From the NCBI GenBank assembly GCA_902574425.1, contig CACGNA010000001.1:1-64000 (forward strand): a stretch of DNA of 64,000 nucleotides, given 5' to 3'. The notes under the pieces are model-generated. The model did not search any database. It had not been told where the DNA came from and saw only the letters and a list, made by a program, of their open reading frames with translations. The translations under genes were made by a program, and so were the position numbers. Below are positions 12,562-59,151 of this stretch, in pieces (within the stretch, counting starts at the first letter, position 1; each line of letters opens with the position of its first letter). This DNA comes from an uncultured Prochlorococcus sp. GTDB lineage: Bacteria; Cyanobacteriota; Cyanobacteriia; PCC-6307; Cyanobiaceae.

Positions 12562-12871
12562 ACCTTAGATAATATTTCCACATAAATAAAAAATTTAATC
12601 TTTGATTTTTATAATTAATTTAATTTATTAAAAACAATTATCAAATAATAAATTCTGTAAATTTTAAACATTTGCTGTACAGGATTTGGTTGTTTAAGGG
12701 TTAATAATCATTATAATATCGACGATAATTGTCAATATTTATGACCCAGTATTAAGAATAACTTATGCATTTGGGAATATACTTAGTCTTACATTTTTGA
12801 GTTAGCTATACAGAGAGACTGGGAGTGATCCAAAGAAAGAAATCAAATTCAGAAAAAGATAAATAAAAAAA

Positions 12872-12985
12872 CTACTTCTGTATTTTTAACTTTGAAGAAT
12901 ACTTTAAATTAACAATGTAAGTCGCAACAAGAGATAGTATCAAAAAAAATAATAAGCTTTCCAAGGTAGATTGGGGCATAACCAT
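12872..12985 (-). CDS. Small TM protein (37 aa)
   Basis: M(VM)PQSTLESLLFFLILSLVATYIVNLKYSSKLKIQK. Confidence 0.4.
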   Translation of the reverse strand: MVMPQSTLESLLFFLILSLVATYIVNLKYSSKLKIQK

Positions 12986-13066
12986 GAGTAGTACCAAAAA
13001 TGATATATCTTTAGAGAAACGAATTCTGAAGAAAAATCAACCCTTTAATTATTTTTTATTTTCAAA

Positions 13067-14383
13067 TTAATAAATCCCAATCCCAAAAAATGAATTTGCA
13101 ATAAATAATAAGCTAAATAACGTTAAGAAAATTAATCCTATCCAACTTACTGTTTTTAGAAAAAATCCATATCTATTTTTAATTGGTACTAATTTGCTAT
13201 TTATAGTATCCATAGCCATCCATGCAAATAAAGGGGCGGTTAGAAAACTTCCAGTCATTGCAGCAAATACAAAATCTTTTACTCCTATACCTCCAGACCT
13301 TGCAATCAGCAAAGCTATTAATGATGCAAAGATATGTATAATCATCCAAAGTTGGAATCTATTTCGCTCTGATTTGGAATCCATGTGTCCAAAATCAGTA
13401 CCTCTCAATAAACCTTGAATAGCAGAAATACTTCTAGGATATGCATCTAGACAAGTAATTGTAGTACTAAACATTGCGGCAAATGCTGCAGGTATTATGA
13501 TCCATTTAGCCCAATTGCCAATGGATTTAGTGTAAAGGAGTATTAACTTTTGAGCGAAGGAGACTCCACTTCCGGAAAGCATTCCATCGCCAGTACCATA
13601 CATTGTTATTGCTCCAAGAGTAAGGAAGAAAATAGCCGTAACAACAGTTATTAAGTAACCGAGATTAAAATCGAATTCTGCTTCACTAATATTTGGTTTA
13701 TAGTTTGAATCTTTTGCTCGAGAAAACATCCATAAAGAAGGCCAAACACATAACTCTACTGGGCAAGGCATCCATCCCATTAAAGGGATCAAAAAAGCTA
13801 AATTTGTTAACTTCCATGGGCTGATTTCTGGTTCAAAAAAACTCATTTTTAGAGACTCATTTATTGAACCTTTAAGCAAAAGCGATAAAACTGCGAATAA
13901 TGTTAAAAAAGTTAAGAGAGATACTAAAAATTTTGAAATTCTATCAAGGGCTTTATATTTACCAAGAATTAATATCATTCCAGAAACAATCAGAATTCCT
14001 ATAGACAAATCCATCGCTGGAAAAGCTGAGAAAAAGGGGATATTAGTTAATAGAACACCAGAAACAAAACTTACAGCCGCTATTGTGAAAGTACCGGTAA
14101 TTAAACTAACTATTAGAAATAAAGGAAGATATAAAGAATTCCGCTCTTTGAAACCTTCTAATAATGATTTACCAGTACATGCTGTAAATCTAGTTCCAAC
14201 CAACAAAAATGGATATTTTAAAAGATTAGTAAGAAGGATTAGACCAACTAATGAAAATCCGAACCTCGCACCAGCAGTAGTTGAAGACAATAAATGAGAA
14301 CCCCCTATTGCCGCTCCAGCTAGCAAAATTCCTGGACCTAAACTTTTTTGTATTCCTTTTGTTAAATTAATGTTTTTCATCAA
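13067..14383 (-). CDS. NRAMP-related transporter lacking the canonical DPGN motif
   Basis: LGPGILLAGAAIGGSHLLSSTTAGARFG; about 11 TM segments. Confidence 0.75.
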   Translation of the reverse strand: MMKNINLTKGIQKSLGPGILLAGAAIGGSHLLSSTTAGARFGFSLVGLILLTNLLKYPFLLVGTRFTACTGKSLLEGFKERNSLYLPLFLIVSLITGTFTIAAVSFVSGVLLTNIPFFSAFPAMDLSIGILIVSGMILILGKYKALDRISKFLVSLLTFLTLFAVLSLLLKGSINESLKMSFFEPEISPWKLTNLAFLIPLMGWMPCPVELCVWPSLWMFSRAKDSNYKPNISEAEFDFNLGYLITVVTAIFFLTLGAITMYGTGDGMLSGSGVSFAQKLILLYTKSIGNWAKWIIIPAAFAAMFSTTITCLDAYPRSISAIQGLLRGTDFGHMDSKSERNRFQLWMIIHIFASLIALLIARSGGIGVKDFVFAAMTGSFLTAPLFAWMAMDTINSKLVPIKNRYGFFLKTVSWIGLIFLTLFSLLFIANSFFGIGIY

Positions 14384-50326: not shown

Positions 50327-50683
50327 ATCTTTTTATACATATAAGATCAAATATTCCAAATAATTATCAAAAATAAGTAATTCAAAAAAAATCCCCTTTT
50401 TGAAGGTAACTCTAATTAAAATATAATGGTTAAAGTAACATCTTTTTTGTTTTCCTTTAACAAAATATATCTAGCAAATCTTGAATTAGTTTTCTATCTC
50501 TGAACAAGCACTATTTGAATTCATAAACTGAGAGGGTTAAATCACATTGGGATTCCATCAAGGAATATGTAGAACTACATACAACTAAATTTTTAAATTT
50601 TAATTAATTCCCCTTAACTACATTAGGCATAGAAATTAACACTTGGGAAGAAATAGGAAAGTCAATAAAATTATTAATTTTGC

Positions 50684-52176: not shown

Positions 52177-52362
52177 ATGAGCACTAAATGGGATGACAAA
52201 TCTTGGCAGAAAGATTTCTTAAACATGAAGTCGCATTCTCCCTCAGATGCAAAACTCTTAATTGGAGGTGTAAAAGGATTAAAAGATGCATGGCGTCTAG
52301 GTGTAATGCATTTGGAATACGAAAGACTGAAGAAAATACAGGAGGAACAGCAACAGCAATGA
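52177..52362 (+). CDS. Small protein A, copy 1 of a duplicated gene pair
   Basis: MSTKWDDKSWQKDFLNMKSHSPSDAKLLIGGVKGLKDAWRLGVMHLEYERLKKIQEEQQQQ; near-identical to 55644-55835. Confidence 0.8.
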   Translation: MSTKWDDKSWQKDFLNMKSHSPSDAKLLIGGVKGLKDAWRLGVMHLEYERLKKIQEEQQQQ

Positions 52363-52589
52363 CAGAAAAAATAAACTGGCAGAAAGAATTATTAGAAAGT
52401 GGAAAGTTTAATGATAAATTTTCAAAAAATCTTCTAAAACATGGAGCAAAAAACTTTATGCAAGGAATCTATCTTGGATATATGTATTCTAGATGGAGAA
52501 AAATAAGAGGTTTAGCGAAAGATGATCCAGTAGAAAATAAAGGTCAAATGCAATCATCATTCAAAGATTTTGAGGAGAAAATCAAATAA
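52359..52589 (+). CDS. Small protein B, copy 1 (ATGA overlap with A)
   Basis: MTEKINWQKELLESGKFNDKFSKNLLKHGAKNFMQGIYLGYMYSRWRKIRGL; near-identical to 55832-56062. Confidence 0.8.
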   Translation: MTEKINWQKELLESGKFNDKFSKNLLKHGAKNFMQGIYLGYMYSRWRKIRGLAKDDPVENKGQMQSSFKDFEEKIK

Positions 52590-52656
52590 AAACGATAAGT
52601 ACTTCCCCTTTAGAAGAATCAGAATCTCCTAATTATTTACAAACGATATTGAGGAA

Positions 52657-52735
52657 TCCACCAACACCATATTTCGTCAATCAAATATCCACCAACACAT
52701 CCACCAACACCAAAAACTTGCCGATATTGGACGAC
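52657..52735. repeat. Iteron cluster A: three TCCACCAACAC direct repeats plus shared tail GATATTGGACGA
   Basis: Repeats at 52657, 52688, 52700. Confidence 0.9.
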
Positions 52736-52758: not shown

Positions 52759-55179
52759 TTAACCTTTACTCTTAAAGTGATTGCTTATGTAGTTAATTAG
52801 TTTTTCTCCTTCAAGTTTATCGGTGGCAGGATTTGTTCGAACATAAAAATCTTTAGCATCGATAAAACATGCTGATTTTGATTGTTTACATTCAATCATA
52901 AGGACTTCTTTATTATCAATATTCACAATCTCAGAGTTAATAAAAGGATAAAATTGTTCGCCAATTTTATTTCTAATTTGATTCTTAAAATACAATAAAA
53001 ATTTATCTTTTTTATTTTGTTTTAATTTCAAATCTTTCTCTAGACCAATAATATTGCCTTCATCACTGACTCCAATTAAAAGATGTCCTCCATTACTATT
53101 TAAAAAGGCAGCAATAGTTTTTAAACACGCAAGTTCAATAATCTTTTTATCAACCTCTCCTTTCATGCAGACACTAAAAGTAGACTTAAACTCCAACGTT
53201 CCAGATTCGCCCTTTTGAATAAGATTTATTATTTTTTCTGCATTTGTTAGACCTCCAACTGCTTCAAGCATTCCATCAATTTGTTCAAGAACATTACTTG
53301 TACTAATTGGACTTACAGCATAGTTATTTTCTAATTCTTCTATTTTTACCTTCAAATTATTTAAGCGTTCACTAGTCTTAATTATCTTTTTTTGATCTGA
53401 AATAAATGGTACAGGAATGACCATTTCATCTAAAAAACCTTCCCATCTTATTTCCCTAACAACATTGTAATTACATAGATTTGCAAGCATCAATTTACCA
53501 AGTTTAGATCTAAGGAATACTGATAGATACTTGTTGATAATCTTTTCTGGTTTTAAGACAAGTTGAAATGCGAATTGATGAGATACTTCTAAGTCTTTTA
53601 AGTGAACAACAGAATTTTTTGTGGGAATTCTTGGCACATATATTGCATTATCCTTATCTTCGAAATGTCCTCCGCGCATACAAAAATTCCTTTCAAGAAT
53701 CAATTCATTCAATGCAATACTCTTGTAGTTTTCGTATTGCCCAAGTAAACGTTTAATTTGTTTAGTTTCTGGAGATGCGTTTACATATCTTTTAACGCTT
53801 AGGTTGAAATTATTTTTTTCTAAAGAATCGATTGTGATAATCGATGAATAAAATTCTTTTTCTTCAAAGTTTTCAAAACTATTTAAGATTAATGTTATGT
53901 CCTCTTCTCTTAGGTGGTTTTTATATTTACCTTTTTCATATCCCTGACTTCCATCAATAAAAAGCACTTTGCCTTTCCTTTCATTACTTTTTTTCTTATT
54001 AATAATCAAAATTGATGCAGGAATTCCTGTCCAATCAAATAAACCTTGCGGTAATGCAATTACTGCTTCAATTAAATCTCTCTTTAGAATTCCTTTTCTA
54101 ATTTCCCCTTCAGAAGCACCTCTAAAAAGAATTCCATTTGGAACAAGCACTCCCATGATTCCTGTTTCATTTAAAGATGCAATCATGTGTTGGACAAACG
54201 CAAAGTCGCCAGAACCTTTAGGTGGTATACCAAATTTGTATCTTCCAAAAATATCGTTTTGGGCAATATCGCGACCCCAATTCCCCAAGGAAAAAGGTGG
54301 ATTAGCAATTACTCTATCAAATTGTTTAATTAGACCATTTTCTAGATGTTGAGGATTTATTAATGTATCCCCTTTTTTGATATTTGCTTCATTAACACCA
54401 TGAAATAACATGTTTAATTTGCACATTGTCCATGTACTTTGATTAAGTTCCTGCCCGGCAATCAAAAGTTTATCTGGATCTTCCCCATTTATTTTTAAAT
54501 AATTTCTTGCTGCAGTAAACATTCCACCTGATCCGCATACCGGGTCATATATTTCCATTCCCTCTTTTGGTTTTATTAATTTTATGAGTAATTCAACTAT
54601 CTTTTTAGGAGTATAAAATTCTCCTCCTCTTTTACCTGCAGATTTAACAAACATTTGAATAAGGTATTCGTATGCAGTTCCTAATAAATCAGATTTATCA
54701 AAATCTGATTTCCTTAATCTCAAAATAGAGAAATGAGAAATTAGTTCCCTTAGTTTGAAATCATTTAGTTTATCTTTGATATTAAAATCAATGGATGTAA
54801 GAACCTCATCAAGATTTGGATTATATTGTTCGATTGATTCGTTTGCTTTGTTTAATTTAATCCCAATATCTTGCTTCAAATCTTTTAAATTATTCCATTG
54901 TGCATTTTCAGGAATATAAAAATTATTTTTATAATGATCTGGGTTATTTGCTAATTTTTTTGCTTCGGTTAAGGTTTTATTATTTTCAGTAAAAGACTGA
55001 ATAATTTTTTCCTTTTCTTCATCAAAAGAATCAGAAAGGTGTTTTAAGAAAAAGATGCCAAATATATAATCCTTAAATTCAGAGGCATCTAAAGTACCTC
55101 TGAGAATTTCAGCACTTTCCCAGAGAAATGTTTGAAGTTGTGATAAAGAATGTTTTTTTTCTATAATTTTTGGGAATTT
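52759..55179 (-). CDS. HsdM-type N6-adenine methylase fused to HsdS-like half domain and AlbA_2/Schlafen-like domain; canonical start absent
   Basis: HsdM N-terminus LSQLQTFLWESAEILRGTLDASEFKDYIFGIFFLKHLSD read in frame upstream of the called TTG at 54879; NPPF methylase motif; LEFKSTF...ECKQSKSACFIDAKDFYVRTNPAT. Confidence 0.85.
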   Translation of the reverse strand, partial: KFPKIIEKKHSLSQLQTFLWESAEILRGTLDASEFKDYIFGIFFLKHLSDSFDEEKEKIIQSFTENNKTLTEAKKLANNPDHYKNNFYIPENAQWNNLKDLKQDIGIKLNKANESIEQYNPNLDEVLTSIDFNIKDKLNDFKLRELISHFSILRLRKSDFDKSDLLGTAYEYLIQMFVKSAGKRGGEFYTPKKIVELLIKLIKPKEGMEIYDPVCGSGGMFTAARNYLKINGEDPDKLLIAGQELNQSTWTMCKLNMLFHGVNEANIKKGDTLINPQHLENGLIKQFDRVIANPPFSLGNWGRDIAQNDIFGRYKFGIPPKGSGDFAFVQHMIASLNETGIMGVLVPNGILFRGASEGEIRKGILKRDLIEAVIALPQGLFDWTGIPASILIINKKKSNERKGKVLFIDGSQGYEKGKYKNHLREEDITLILNSFENFEEKEFYSSIITIDSLEKNNFNLSVKRYVNASPETKQIKRLLGQYENYKSIALNELILERNFCMRGGHFEDKDNAIYVPRIPTKNSVVHLKDLEVSHQFAFQLVLKPEKIINKYLSVFLRSKLGKLMLANLCNYNVVREIRWEGFLDEMVIPVPFISDQKKIIKTSERLNNLKVKIEELENNYAVSPISTSNVLEQIDGMLEAVGGLTNAEKIINLIQKGESGTLEFKSTFSVCMKGEVDKKIIELACLKTIAAFLNSNGGHLLIGVSDEGNIIGLEKDLKLKQNKKDKFLLYFKNQIRNKIGEQFYPFINSEIVNIDNKEVLMIECKQSKSACFIDAKDFYVRTNPATDKLEGEKLINYISNHFKSKG

Positions 55180-55643: not shown

Positions 55644-55835
55644 ATGAAGAATGGTAATAAATGGGATGACAAATCTTGGCAGAAAGAGTTCTTGAACATG
55701 AAGTCACATTCTCCTTCAGACGCAAAACTCCTAATGGGAGGTGTAAAAGGATTGAAAGATGCTTGGCGTTTAGGTGTTCTGCATGTTGACTACGAAAGAC
55801 TGAAGAAAAGACAAGAGGAGCAGCAGCAGCAATGA
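55644..55835 (+). CDS. Small protein A, copy 2
   Basis: NKWDDKSWQKEFLNMKSHSPSDAKLLMGGVKGLKDAWRLGVLHVDYERLKK. Confidence 0.8.
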   Translation: MKNGNKWDDKSWQKEFLNMKSHSPSDAKLLMGGVKGLKDAWRLGVLHVDYERLKKRQEEQQQQ

Positions 55836-56062
55836 AAGAAAAAATAAACTGGCAAAAAGAATTAATAGAGAGCGGAAAATTCAACGATAAATTTTCAAAG
55901 AATTTATTAGAAAATGGAGCAAGGAATTTCATGCAAGGAATATATCTTGGATATATGTATTCAAGGTGGAGAAAAATTAGAGGATTGGATAAAGATAACC
56001 CCATAGAAAACAAAGGTCAAATGCAATCATCTTTTAAAGATTTTGAGAAGAAAATCAAATGA
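55832..56062 (+). CDS. Small protein B, copy 2 (ATGA overlap)
   Basis: MKEKINWQKELIESGKFNDKFSKNLLENGARNFMQGIYLGYMYSRWRKIRGLDKD. Confidence 0.8.
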   Translation: MKEKINWQKELIESGKFNDKFSKNLLENGARNFMQGIYLGYMYSRWRKIRGLDKDNPIENKGQMQSSFKDFEKKIK

Positions 56063-56128
56063 AGATGATATCTATTTCCCTCCAGAAGAGTCAGAACCAC
56101 CTCATTATTAACAAAGGATCTTGAGGAA

Positions 56129-56215
56129 TCCACCAACACATAATTCGTGCATCAAATATCCACCAACACATCCACCAACACCAAAAACTTGCAGATATTG
56201 GACGAAATTGGACTA
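56129..56215. repeat. Iteron cluster B: three TCCACCAACAC repeats plus GATATTGGACGA tail
   Basis: Repeats at 56129, 56159, 56171. Confidence 0.9.
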
Positions 56216-56223
56216 TTAAAACA

Positions 56224-57063
56224 CTAAATTTTATCAAGTGTTCTTTTACCTTTCACTATTAAACTTGTTGCAAGTCCAACTGCGGTAAAAAAGTTTATCC
56301 CTGGGATAGTCAAAGCAACGGCAATCATTGAGAACTTAACAATTTTTTTTCCTGTTATTAATGCAGATGTTTTTAAAAATTCATCTCTTTTGATTTCACC
56401 ATTCATCCATTTTTTAATTAAAAAAACCAAAGATATAGCAAGACTTATTGTTCCAATATTTCCAATTAAAGGAGTAAGAGACTCTTCATCAGCATCCTTT
56501 ACTTTATCTAAAAAATCCTCAACTTTTACCTCTAATTCATCATTACTAATTCCTACACCATCTAACCCTAATTCCTCAGCAACCTCATCAGTGACTACAA
56601 TATTATCGCCATGTTCATCCATCCAACTTTTAACATAAGATGCACTATCAGTTGCCTTAAGTTGAATTTCTTCTATATCCCCTGTTTGTTCATCAATTAA
56701 TTGAACATCATATGTTGGATAATTTGTTTGCTCAAACTGATAAGCAAATATTGAATCGCCATCATTGTTCTCTATCTCAACAAATTCAAGTTCAAATAAA
56801 ATACCTTTTACATTATTAACCAAACCTGGAATCTGATCATCATCATAGGAATTTAAAATTTCCCCTATCTCCTCTAATGAAGCATTCTCGAACTTCTTTG
56901 CAGATCTTCTTAATGCAGCAAGAACTATAGACTCATCAGAAGTAAGATTTCTCTCAGAACCTTTTGATGCAATAGAGATTAAAGAAGTAAGAATAGCAAC
57001 TTCATCAAAGTTATTCCTGACAAAATTTGTCAAACTCCTAATTTTTTCTTTAAATTTATTCAC
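56224..57063 (-). CDS. Membrane protein with D...QxK-type soluble domain, unknown function
   Basis: FELEFVEIENNDGDSIFAYQFEQTNYPTYDVQLIDEQTGDIEEIQLKATD; C-terminal TMs. Confidence 0.65.
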   Translation of the reverse strand: MNKFKEKIRSLTNFVRNNFDEVAILTSLISIASKGSERNLTSDESIVLAALRRSAKKFENASLEEIGEILNSYDDDQIPGLVNNVKGILFELEFVEIENNDGDSIFAYQFEQTNYPTYDVQLIDEQTGDIEEIQLKATDSASYVKSWMDEHGDNIVVTDEVAEELGLDGVGISNDELEVKVEDFLDKVKDADEESLTPLIGNIGTISLAISLVFLIKKWMNGEIKRDEFLKTSALITGKKIVKFSMIAVALTIPGINFFTAVGLATSLIVKGKRTLDKI

Positions 57064-57094
57064 TTTAATAAGTTAGTAAATTAATGATTTTTAA

Positions 57095-57640
57095 TCATTT
57101 AATTTCAATCTCATCCCCTTTTTTATACTTATCTTGACCTTTTGTTTTGTATACTTTCCACATTTCTCTAATTTGATCTTTGGAAAGTTTTGATTGTCCT
57201 TTTGCACGCCTTTTATAAATTAATTCCGAAAGAACATTTCCAATAGCATAGGTGCATCCATAAACCATTGGTATAGTGGTTACTGCACCAAAATATGGCA
57301 GAAAAGTTTTATAAGATTGAGTCACAAAGAACATTGCACCTAATCCCATAAATCCAATTTTACTAATATCTTTTAATACTGAACCAACAGATGCTTCTTT
57401 GACAGGAACTCCCCAGATTGCTGCTAATCTTTCTCCCATTAATACTTGTAAAGGAGTCAATATAAAGATATCCATGAATGGGATTGGTTGTATCGCGACT
57501 CCAGCACAAACTCCCGAAAATAAATTAATTATTCTTTGTGCTTTTTCTTCCTGAGAAAGATCATCTCTTTTTTCAATTTCAACCAAATTTTCTTTCAAAA
57601 ATTTTTTTGCTTTTTCAATTCTGGAATCAGTAGAACTCAT
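57095..57640 (-). CDS. DUF697-like membrane protein
   Basis: GVAIQPIPFMDIFILTPLQVLMGERLAAIWGVPV. Confidence 0.7.
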   Translation of the reverse strand: MSSTDSRIEKAKKFLKENLVEIEKRDDLSQEEKAQRIINLFSGVCAGVAIQPIPFMDIFILTPLQVLMGERLAAIWGVPVKEASVGSVLKDISKIGFMGLGAMFFVTQSYKTFLPYFGAVTTIPMVYGCTYAIGNVLSELIYKRRAKGQSKLSKDQIREMWKVYKTKGQDKYKKGDEIEIK

Positions 57641-57771
57641 TTAAAAAACTTTTTTTTATAATATTTTAATTAATTTGATAAATCTTAAATTATGTAGAAT
57701 TCTTTATTTTTAAAACTAATTTCCTAAAAAATTTTTTTAATATTCGAATCAAATAATTTATATATTATTCT

Positions 57772-58716
57772 TCAATTTTCTTGATGAATTTTCGCCCAGG
57801 TTTCAAAAAATAATAATGCATATAATATTCCAAGGAATTTCTTTCTAGTCTTATTTTTATTTTTTGGATGACTTAACGCATTACGGCAATTCATCATTAT
57901 CGACAAAGATTGATATAGATCTACCGTTCCTTCACGATCATTGAAATAATATCCTTCTCTTCTAGCATCATCAACACATCTGTTATAACTTTTGCTTTTA
58001 TTATTTGCATCAATATTCTTTAATGTTCCATATACTATTTCATGATTTTCTAAAACAAAATCTGTTAACTGATTTATATTAAAACTTTCTAATAAAGATT
58101 GCATTTTGGGATTATCTTTTAGCATTGGTCCGTCAGATATTATTTGACGAAAATATTTATTCATCACATCATCAATCTTTTCATTTTGATAATTCTCATT
58201 TCCCTTTGATTTTTTCTCAAGCATCAATATATTATTTTTATTTTTGTTTTCCAATAGAGAATCCAATTTCTCAGATTGACTAGATAATGAGTTCTTAAGA
58301 AAATTAATAGACTCGCTAAATTCATCTAATTTTTCTTGAATAAGTAAGGATTTATTATCAGAAACAGAGGAAGTAGCATTTAGTTCTTGTTTTGGTTGTC
58401 TTCTAAAATCTTGCCAGAGTTCTTTTATTTGATCATCCGTAAGATTTGACTCCTTATTTGAACTATTTACATTTACCTTGGTTTCATGTTGTGGTTCAGT
58501 GATTTTGAAAATTTTTGCTTTTGGTTTCAACTTTGCTACTAATTCTTTATAAACAGATATTTTTTTCGGAAAAACCCATTTTCTTATTTCACCATTCCAT
58601 TGCCTAAATTGAATATCTTTTGCAATTTGTCTTTCTTCTGGATGAATTTTTAAATAATAGAATTTAAGGTCCTCGGTAATCTCAGGAGGGAAATAAGGAG
58701 TTCTATAGTCAGTCAA
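57772..58716 (-). CDS. Protein with C-terminal HEPN-like RNase motif
   Basis: C-terminal CRNALSHPKNKNKTRKKF (R-x4-H); central coiled region; N-terminal RQWNGEIRKWVFP. Confidence 0.65.
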   Translation of the reverse strand: MTDYRTPYFPPEITEDLKFYYLKIHPEERQIAKDIQFRQWNGEIRKWVFPKKISVYKELVAKLKPKAKIFKITEPQHETKVNVNSSNKESNLTDDQIKELWQDFRRQPKQELNATSSVSDNKSLLIQEKLDEFSESINFLKNSLSSQSEKLDSLLENKNKNNILMLEKKSKGNENYQNEKIDDVMNKYFRQIISDGPMLKDNPKMQSLLESFNINQLTDFVLENHEIVYGTLKNIDANNKSKSYNRCVDDARREGYYFNDREGTVDLYQSLSIMMNCRNALSHPKNKNKTRKKFLGILYALLFFETWAKIHQEN

Positions 58717-58817
58717 AACGCTGAGATTTACTTATCATAAAGACTAATAAATTTTTCAATACAAAACAAATATTTTCAACTTTCAATAATTTCTTGTAAT
58801 TAAGTTTTAATGTCATA

Positions 58818-58920
58818 TCCACCAACACATACTTCGTGCATCAAATATCCACCAACACATCAAAAAATATCCACCAACACATCCACCAACACAATCAGGC
58901 ATACACTGGTAAATATTGGA
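58818..58920. repeat. Iteron cluster C: four TCCACCAACAC repeats plus AATATTGGAC tail
   Basis: Repeats at 58818, 58848, 58870, 58882. Confidence 0.9.
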
Positions 58921-59003
58921 CTTTATAGGACAAGCAACTTCTTTAAAAACCTATTTTGACTACATTATTGCCCACATAGCACTTTACAGAAAGATTATTA
59001 AAC

Positions 59004-59087
59004 GGAGAGGGTGGGATTCGAACCCACGAATAGTTACCTATTAAACGATTTCGAATCGTTCGCTTTCGACCACTCAGCCACCTCTCC
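59004..59087 (-). tRNA. tRNA-Ser(CGA)
   Basis: GGAGAGGTGGCTGAGTGGTCGAAAGCGAACGATTCGAAATCGTT...GGGTTCGAATCCCACCCTCTCC; anticodon CGA. Confidence 0.97.
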
Positions 59088-59151
59088 AAGTTTTATTAAT
59101 TATCTACAAAATTGGATGAAAAAGTTAAGGTCTATTTATTTATCTTAATTA

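Follow-up and report, generated by a model that had tools for sequence, protein, structure and literature searches.

A DUF697 protein paired with a predicted membrane nuclease: a probable defence module in a tRNA-Ser cassette of Prochlorococcus

Tycheposons of Prochlorococcus (described via PMC10872708) carry cargo beside tRNA genes and are tRNA-anchored elements with a tyrosine recombinase. The cassette reported here resembles them in its place beside such a gene, and in another Prochlorococcus genome a copy of its B-C gene pair sits on an island that neighbours tmRNA and includes an integrase-like gene; the cassette differs in having no recombinase gene within its bounds and in being bounded by clusters of CCACCAACAC. 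Two of its three genes match protein families. Gene B matches DUF697 (Pfam PF05128; 1.2e-6, 28.8 bits) above the family gathering cut-off of 27.7, as the initial annotation had anticipated, but it differs from DUF697 proteins in having no GTPase domain and in being paired with a nuclease-like protein. Gene C matches PDC-M72B (6.9e-29, residues 45-185), a component of the PADLOC candidate system PDC-M72; this candidate-defence label is itself a prediction, and no mention of PDC-M72 was found in the open-access literature searched. PDC-M72A (PDLC04783) had no match in the genome of origin, including the whole neighbourhood of the locus, and the partner of gene C here is instead a DUF697 protein; the M72A profile, of 392 positions, makes repeated matches within single proteins and has a repeat-like look. 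With PD-(D/E)xK nucleases, gene C shares an E-D-QxK set whose residues sit on the first helix and on successive strands, in the expected order of secondary structure. It has no significant sequence or structure match to any named member, and it differs in its membrane partner and in the pair of hydrophobic segments at its C-terminus.

The window, a stretch of 64,000 nucleotides, comes from a partial genome of an uncultured Prochlorococcus (57 contigs totalling 1.16 Mb; 65% complete); cyanobacterial RNAs, Yfr13 and Yfr19 among them, are present. Our analyses indicate that B and C form a predicted membrane-nuclease defence module, which we consider probable, and that gene A (Table 1) is an unproven companion. 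A family known until now by its candidate label thereby gains a defined two-gene unit with catalytic-type residues.

Table 1. Positions of the cassette genes, their predicted parts and the bounding repeats in the window
Feature	Position	Strand	Description
Gene A	57772-58716	-	314 aa; small N-terminal domain in common with the G059 relative; helical middle
Gene A, C-terminus			helical, contains RNALSH; rare companion gene
Gene A, RNALSH (HEPN-like R-x4-H motif)	57868-57885	-	residues 278-283
Gene B	57095-57640	-	181 aa, DUF697; putative membrane partner of C
Gene C	56224-57063	-	279 aa, PDC-M72B family
Gene C, predicted nuclease core	56569-56835	-	residues 77-165; helix, three strands, helix, strand, helix (DSSP on model)
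Gene C, two hydrophobic C-terminal segments	56272-56472	-	putative membrane anchor; hydropathy and model helices
Left bounding repeat cluster	56128-56182	+	3 x CCACCAACAC
Right bounding repeat cluster	58817-58893	+	4 x CCACCAACAC
Third repeat cluster	52655-52711	+	bounds neighbouring cassette
tRNA-Ser(cga)	59002-59088	-	anchor of cassette site

The cassette and its tRNA-Ser site

Genes A, B and C lie on the minus strand between two flanking repeat clusters, an arrangement correctly read in the initial annotation, and B precedes C with a gap of 31 bp. The same annotation regarded the clusters as iterons; they are instead direct repeats that bound exchangeable cassettes at a tRNA-Ser site common to many Prochlorococcus. 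The TATCCACCAACACA repeat, allowing up to 2 mismatches, is found in 10 copies distributed over three clusters against an expectation of 0.26, and a 45-bp direct repeat has its left copy at 56128-56172 and its right copy, 98% identical, at 58817-58861. An empty site was found in genome G010 (locus L105), where 12705-12872 corresponds to about 56005-56172 of the window and 12828-13110 to 58817-59087. These matched stretches overlap by the 45-bp repeat with no A-B-C cargo, and hence A-B-C represents an insertion or a loss between direct repeats. The adjacent tRNA-Ser, the direct repeats and the empty site all agree with the earlier view of the locus as a tRNA-adjacent mobile cassette.

A tRNA-Ser gene accompanied by such repeats also occurs in other Prochlorococcus. 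At the corresponding site in G008 (L124:9285-16990), a type I restriction-modification system (HsdR, HsdS, HsdM) is flanked on one side by a repeat that includes a copy of the tRNA 3' end and on the other by the intact tRNA. Tandem cassettes in G547 (L123:12544-18760), bounded by repeats or by tRNA 3'-end copies, contain a C5 methylase, an IceA-like protein and an Mrr-type helicase protein, while the cargo comprises TPR and MORN proteins at L119 and a 2OG oxygenase at L120. Several of the tRNA-Ser islands contain repeated copies of the tRNA 3' end (ACGGAGAGGGTG), as expected of tRNA-targeted integration, and none lies between the clusters of the window. Prochlorococcus lives under constant cyanophage pressure, and this tRNA-Ser site appears to be one at which restriction systems and B-C replace one another. 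Promoter and terminator scans returned matches at chance level.

Several other features of this part of the window were observed. A weak copy of the tRNA-Ser 3' end, with 2 mismatches, at 50525 is possibly an old attachment site at the far end of the island. The neighbouring cassette contains a 706 aa protein (52759-54879, minus strand) in which an N6-adenine methylase is fused to a Schlafen/AlbA_2 domain, an unusual combination for one gene. To the left of the repeat clusters, two small ORFs lying together (PHROG 16908/869) are nearly duplicated at 52177-52589 and 55644-56062 on the plus strand (87% over 300 nt), and similar small ORFs occupy the same position in G008, G010 and G538, as if they belonged to the repeat unit.

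Gene C and its putative membrane partners

The nuclease-like D...QxK core and the membrane segments first noticed in gene C are both recovered here, as an E..D..QxK set and as two hydrophobic C-terminal segments (residues 198-216, mean hydropathy 2.0; residues 246-264, mean 1.85) that form helices in the model. The set is nearly invariant across the family alignment, with gaps counted: E91 and D119 are each conserved in 81 of 82 sequences, and Q134 and K136 each in 80 of 82. An AlphaFold model derived from 36 family sequences (mean pLDDT 78.6, core above 90) gives the core the order alpha-beta-beta-beta-alpha-beta, with E91 on the core helix and D119 and Q134/K136 at the starts or ends of three strands. 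The leading Foldseek matches are mostly PD-(D/E)xK nucleases, including SwaI, PA endonuclease, DdmD, and phage nucleases of the PD(D/E)XK and VRR-NUC kinds; none is significant, every E value being 0.1 or higher. The assignment is therefore founded on motif and predicted topology, by which gene C looks like a nuclease of the PD-(D/E)xK type. A match to PDB 2xv9 (3e-4) fell in a helical stretch and concerned an unrelated repeat protein; it was set aside.

Wider searches located relatives of gene C at 80 genome loci and at 6 loci of a viral collection, and the B-C pair ranges from Bacteroidota to Firmicutes. Scans of the viral collection with the single A, B or C protein returned no relatives, and a search of phage sequences returned none of gene C. 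A membrane partner is adjacent or fused in 72 of the 81 relatives that could be read. It is a DUF697 protein in 21 cases (20 directly upstream and one DUF697-C fusion) and a glycine-zipper protein in 51 (20 upstream and 31 fusions), the latter count being approximate because the class was called by sequence pattern; the remaining nine, some of them truncated where a contig stops, have no class. The glycine-zipper proteins stand where B would be, either upstream of C or in fusion with it, but a profile built from the DUF697 partners misses them; the window has a DUF697 protein in their stead. Two glycine-zipper proteins were examined and both matched PADLOC PDC-M09A. These counts identify B-C as a real two-gene module, and from the fusions, 32 of 81 in all, we infer a joint function.

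Defence neighbourhoods and a proposed mechanism

Elsewhere the pair is found in or beside known antiviral systems in very different bacteria. In Saccharicrinis (L020) it is placed within a BREX operon, separated by gaps of a few bases, in the order BrxC end, PglX, 4 bp, B, C, a CARF_2OG-family gene, a large helicase-like protein, an unknown gene and PglZ. A second BREX locus, in Algibacter (L023), runs BrxC, PglX, B, C and a CARF_2OG-family gene, followed by a gene that fits a reverse-transcriptase-associated model of PADLOC. Two loci have type III CRISPR neighbours, with Cas10 near B-C in both: Thiothrix (L030), where a TIGR02584 CRISPR ring-nuclease gene is upstream, and Desulfovirgula (L085), where Cas1 is upstream. 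A type IIG enzyme lies by the pair in Seonamhaeicola (L021) and a PsyrT-like helicase in Vulcanococcus (L027), and several B-C loci have no defence neighbour. The loci with defence neighbours are of the DUF697 type and were chosen for large genes visible beside the pair, so the association, though strong, is a qualitative one. Because the pair recurs across distant bacteria, several times in or beside antiviral systems, B-C is probably an undescribed antiviral module, and defence biology, already suspected from the window, gains weight as the likely theme.

We think it fairly probable that B-C is a two-protein defence module in which B, a DUF697 membrane protein, holds or gates C, a membrane-tethered predicted nuclease of the PD-(D/E)xK type. 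By this mechanism B would contact C and anchor or gate it at the membrane; upon infection or the entry of foreign DNA, C would cut nucleic acid there, and the cut may either stop the invader or shut down the infected cell.

The combination of one nuclease core with two different membrane partners, natural fusions, and sites in both BREX and type III CRISPR loci suggests a shared effector module. Carried further, B-C would be a portable membrane-nuclease effector repeatedly plugged into loci for BREX, type III CRISPR and restriction. DUF697 and glycine-zipper proteins would serve it as unrelated membrane anchors, and in Prochlorococcus it would be joined by a HEPN-like sensor, gene A, to make a new three-part type. 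We regard this fuller version as rather unlikely.

Gene A and the remaining alternatives

The initial annotation read gene A, from its RNALSH motif, as a HEPN effector and gave it the leading part in the locus; as a complete explanation, A would be the effector of a single abortive-infection system to which B and C contribute membrane helpers. The three genes do share one cassette in the window, RNALSH is present and fits R-[ND]-x3-H, and the C-terminus of A is helical in a single-sequence model, albeit a poor one (mean pLDDT 43.7). The R-[ND]-x3-H pattern nevertheless arises in 3.4% of shuffles of gene A, and the looser R-x4-H form in 19%, which makes the motif weak evidence when taken by itself. 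Gene A matched nothing in Pfam, NCBIfam, PADLOC, PDB, phages or plasmids, and its alignment against 300 genomes of the family recovered the window's own gene only. Weak matches to its C-terminus in other cyanobacterial genomes involved, at the three loci inspected, a sigma-factor-like protein (twice) and unrelated proteins, and were attributed to chance. A structure search with the model returned only small ferredoxin-like or Cas2-like N-terminal shapes and, the model being poor, was not used; a possible likeness of the N-terminus to HARP domains lacked Pfam support.

A single relative of gene A was found, in G059. Its N-terminal domain is well matched; in the motif region, where the alignment is of low identity, it has RNRILK in place of RNALSH and so lacks the histidine. 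Thus the motif reported for gene A stands, whereas its reading as a HEPN RNase finds no family, PDB or cyanobacterial match and loses the histidine in the one relative. The contig with this relative overlaps the B-C contig of that genome by an exact 48 nt and the next contig by 196 nt, which sets the relative divergent from B-C, at a calculated distance from gene B of about 150 bp. Single-cell amplification can make inverted joins; the orientation of the relative in G059 is therefore uncertain, and the 48-nt join could itself be an amplification chimera. Even so, the three genes appear to lie side by side in a second genome, contrary to the condition set in the initial annotation that they never occur together elsewhere, and the linkage is a hint that gene A may travel with B-C in Prochlorococcus. 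Against this, gene A is missing from the B-C loci of every other genus in which the pair was found and of Prochlorococcus G047, and there was no relative of gene A among the 1215 ORFs of the 86 loci with gene C relatives, which removes gene A from the conserved core of the system. We therefore judge a three-gene HEPN system distinctly unlikely; gene A is better seen as a lineage-specific companion that travels with the cassette and may act as a sensor or regulator.

We are similarly doubtful of a toxin-antitoxin or addiction role for B-C, in which C would be a toxic nuclease and B its membrane-bound inhibitor, stabilising mobile cassettes with any anti-phage effect being secondary. Two small and often overlapping genes on plasmids and islands, and the turnover of cargo at the tRNA site, would be consistent with such a pair; however, fusion of the partner to C at the frequency given above is unusual for a labile antitoxin, and the insertion of B-C into BREX, together with its position next to type III CRISPR, suggests an antiviral task held in common. 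It is highly improbable that B-C serves membrane stress or envelope maintenance in accidental island company, as GTPase-linked DUF697 relatives might suggest and as the sole plasmid match of gene B (a gene annotated as a GTPase on a Priestia plasmid) would allow, since gene C is rare and patchy (4 of 100 close-relative genomes, counting the window's own, and 3 of the 251 genomes from the family to which Algibacter belongs), its nuclease-type residues are strictly conserved and its defence neighbours recur.

Two further copies bear on the carriers of the two-protein module. The G047 copy (locus L008) consists of a DUF697 gene followed after 24 bp by C, with neither gene A nor CCACCAACACA repeats; it belongs to the island near tmRNA (L008:7518-16810), which also contains TPR proteins and integrase-like and ParA-like genes, and is probably another mobile element with the same pair. 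A DUF697-C pair is also present on a 66.9 kb contig classed as viral in IMG/VR (L092), which could be a prophage or a plasmid.
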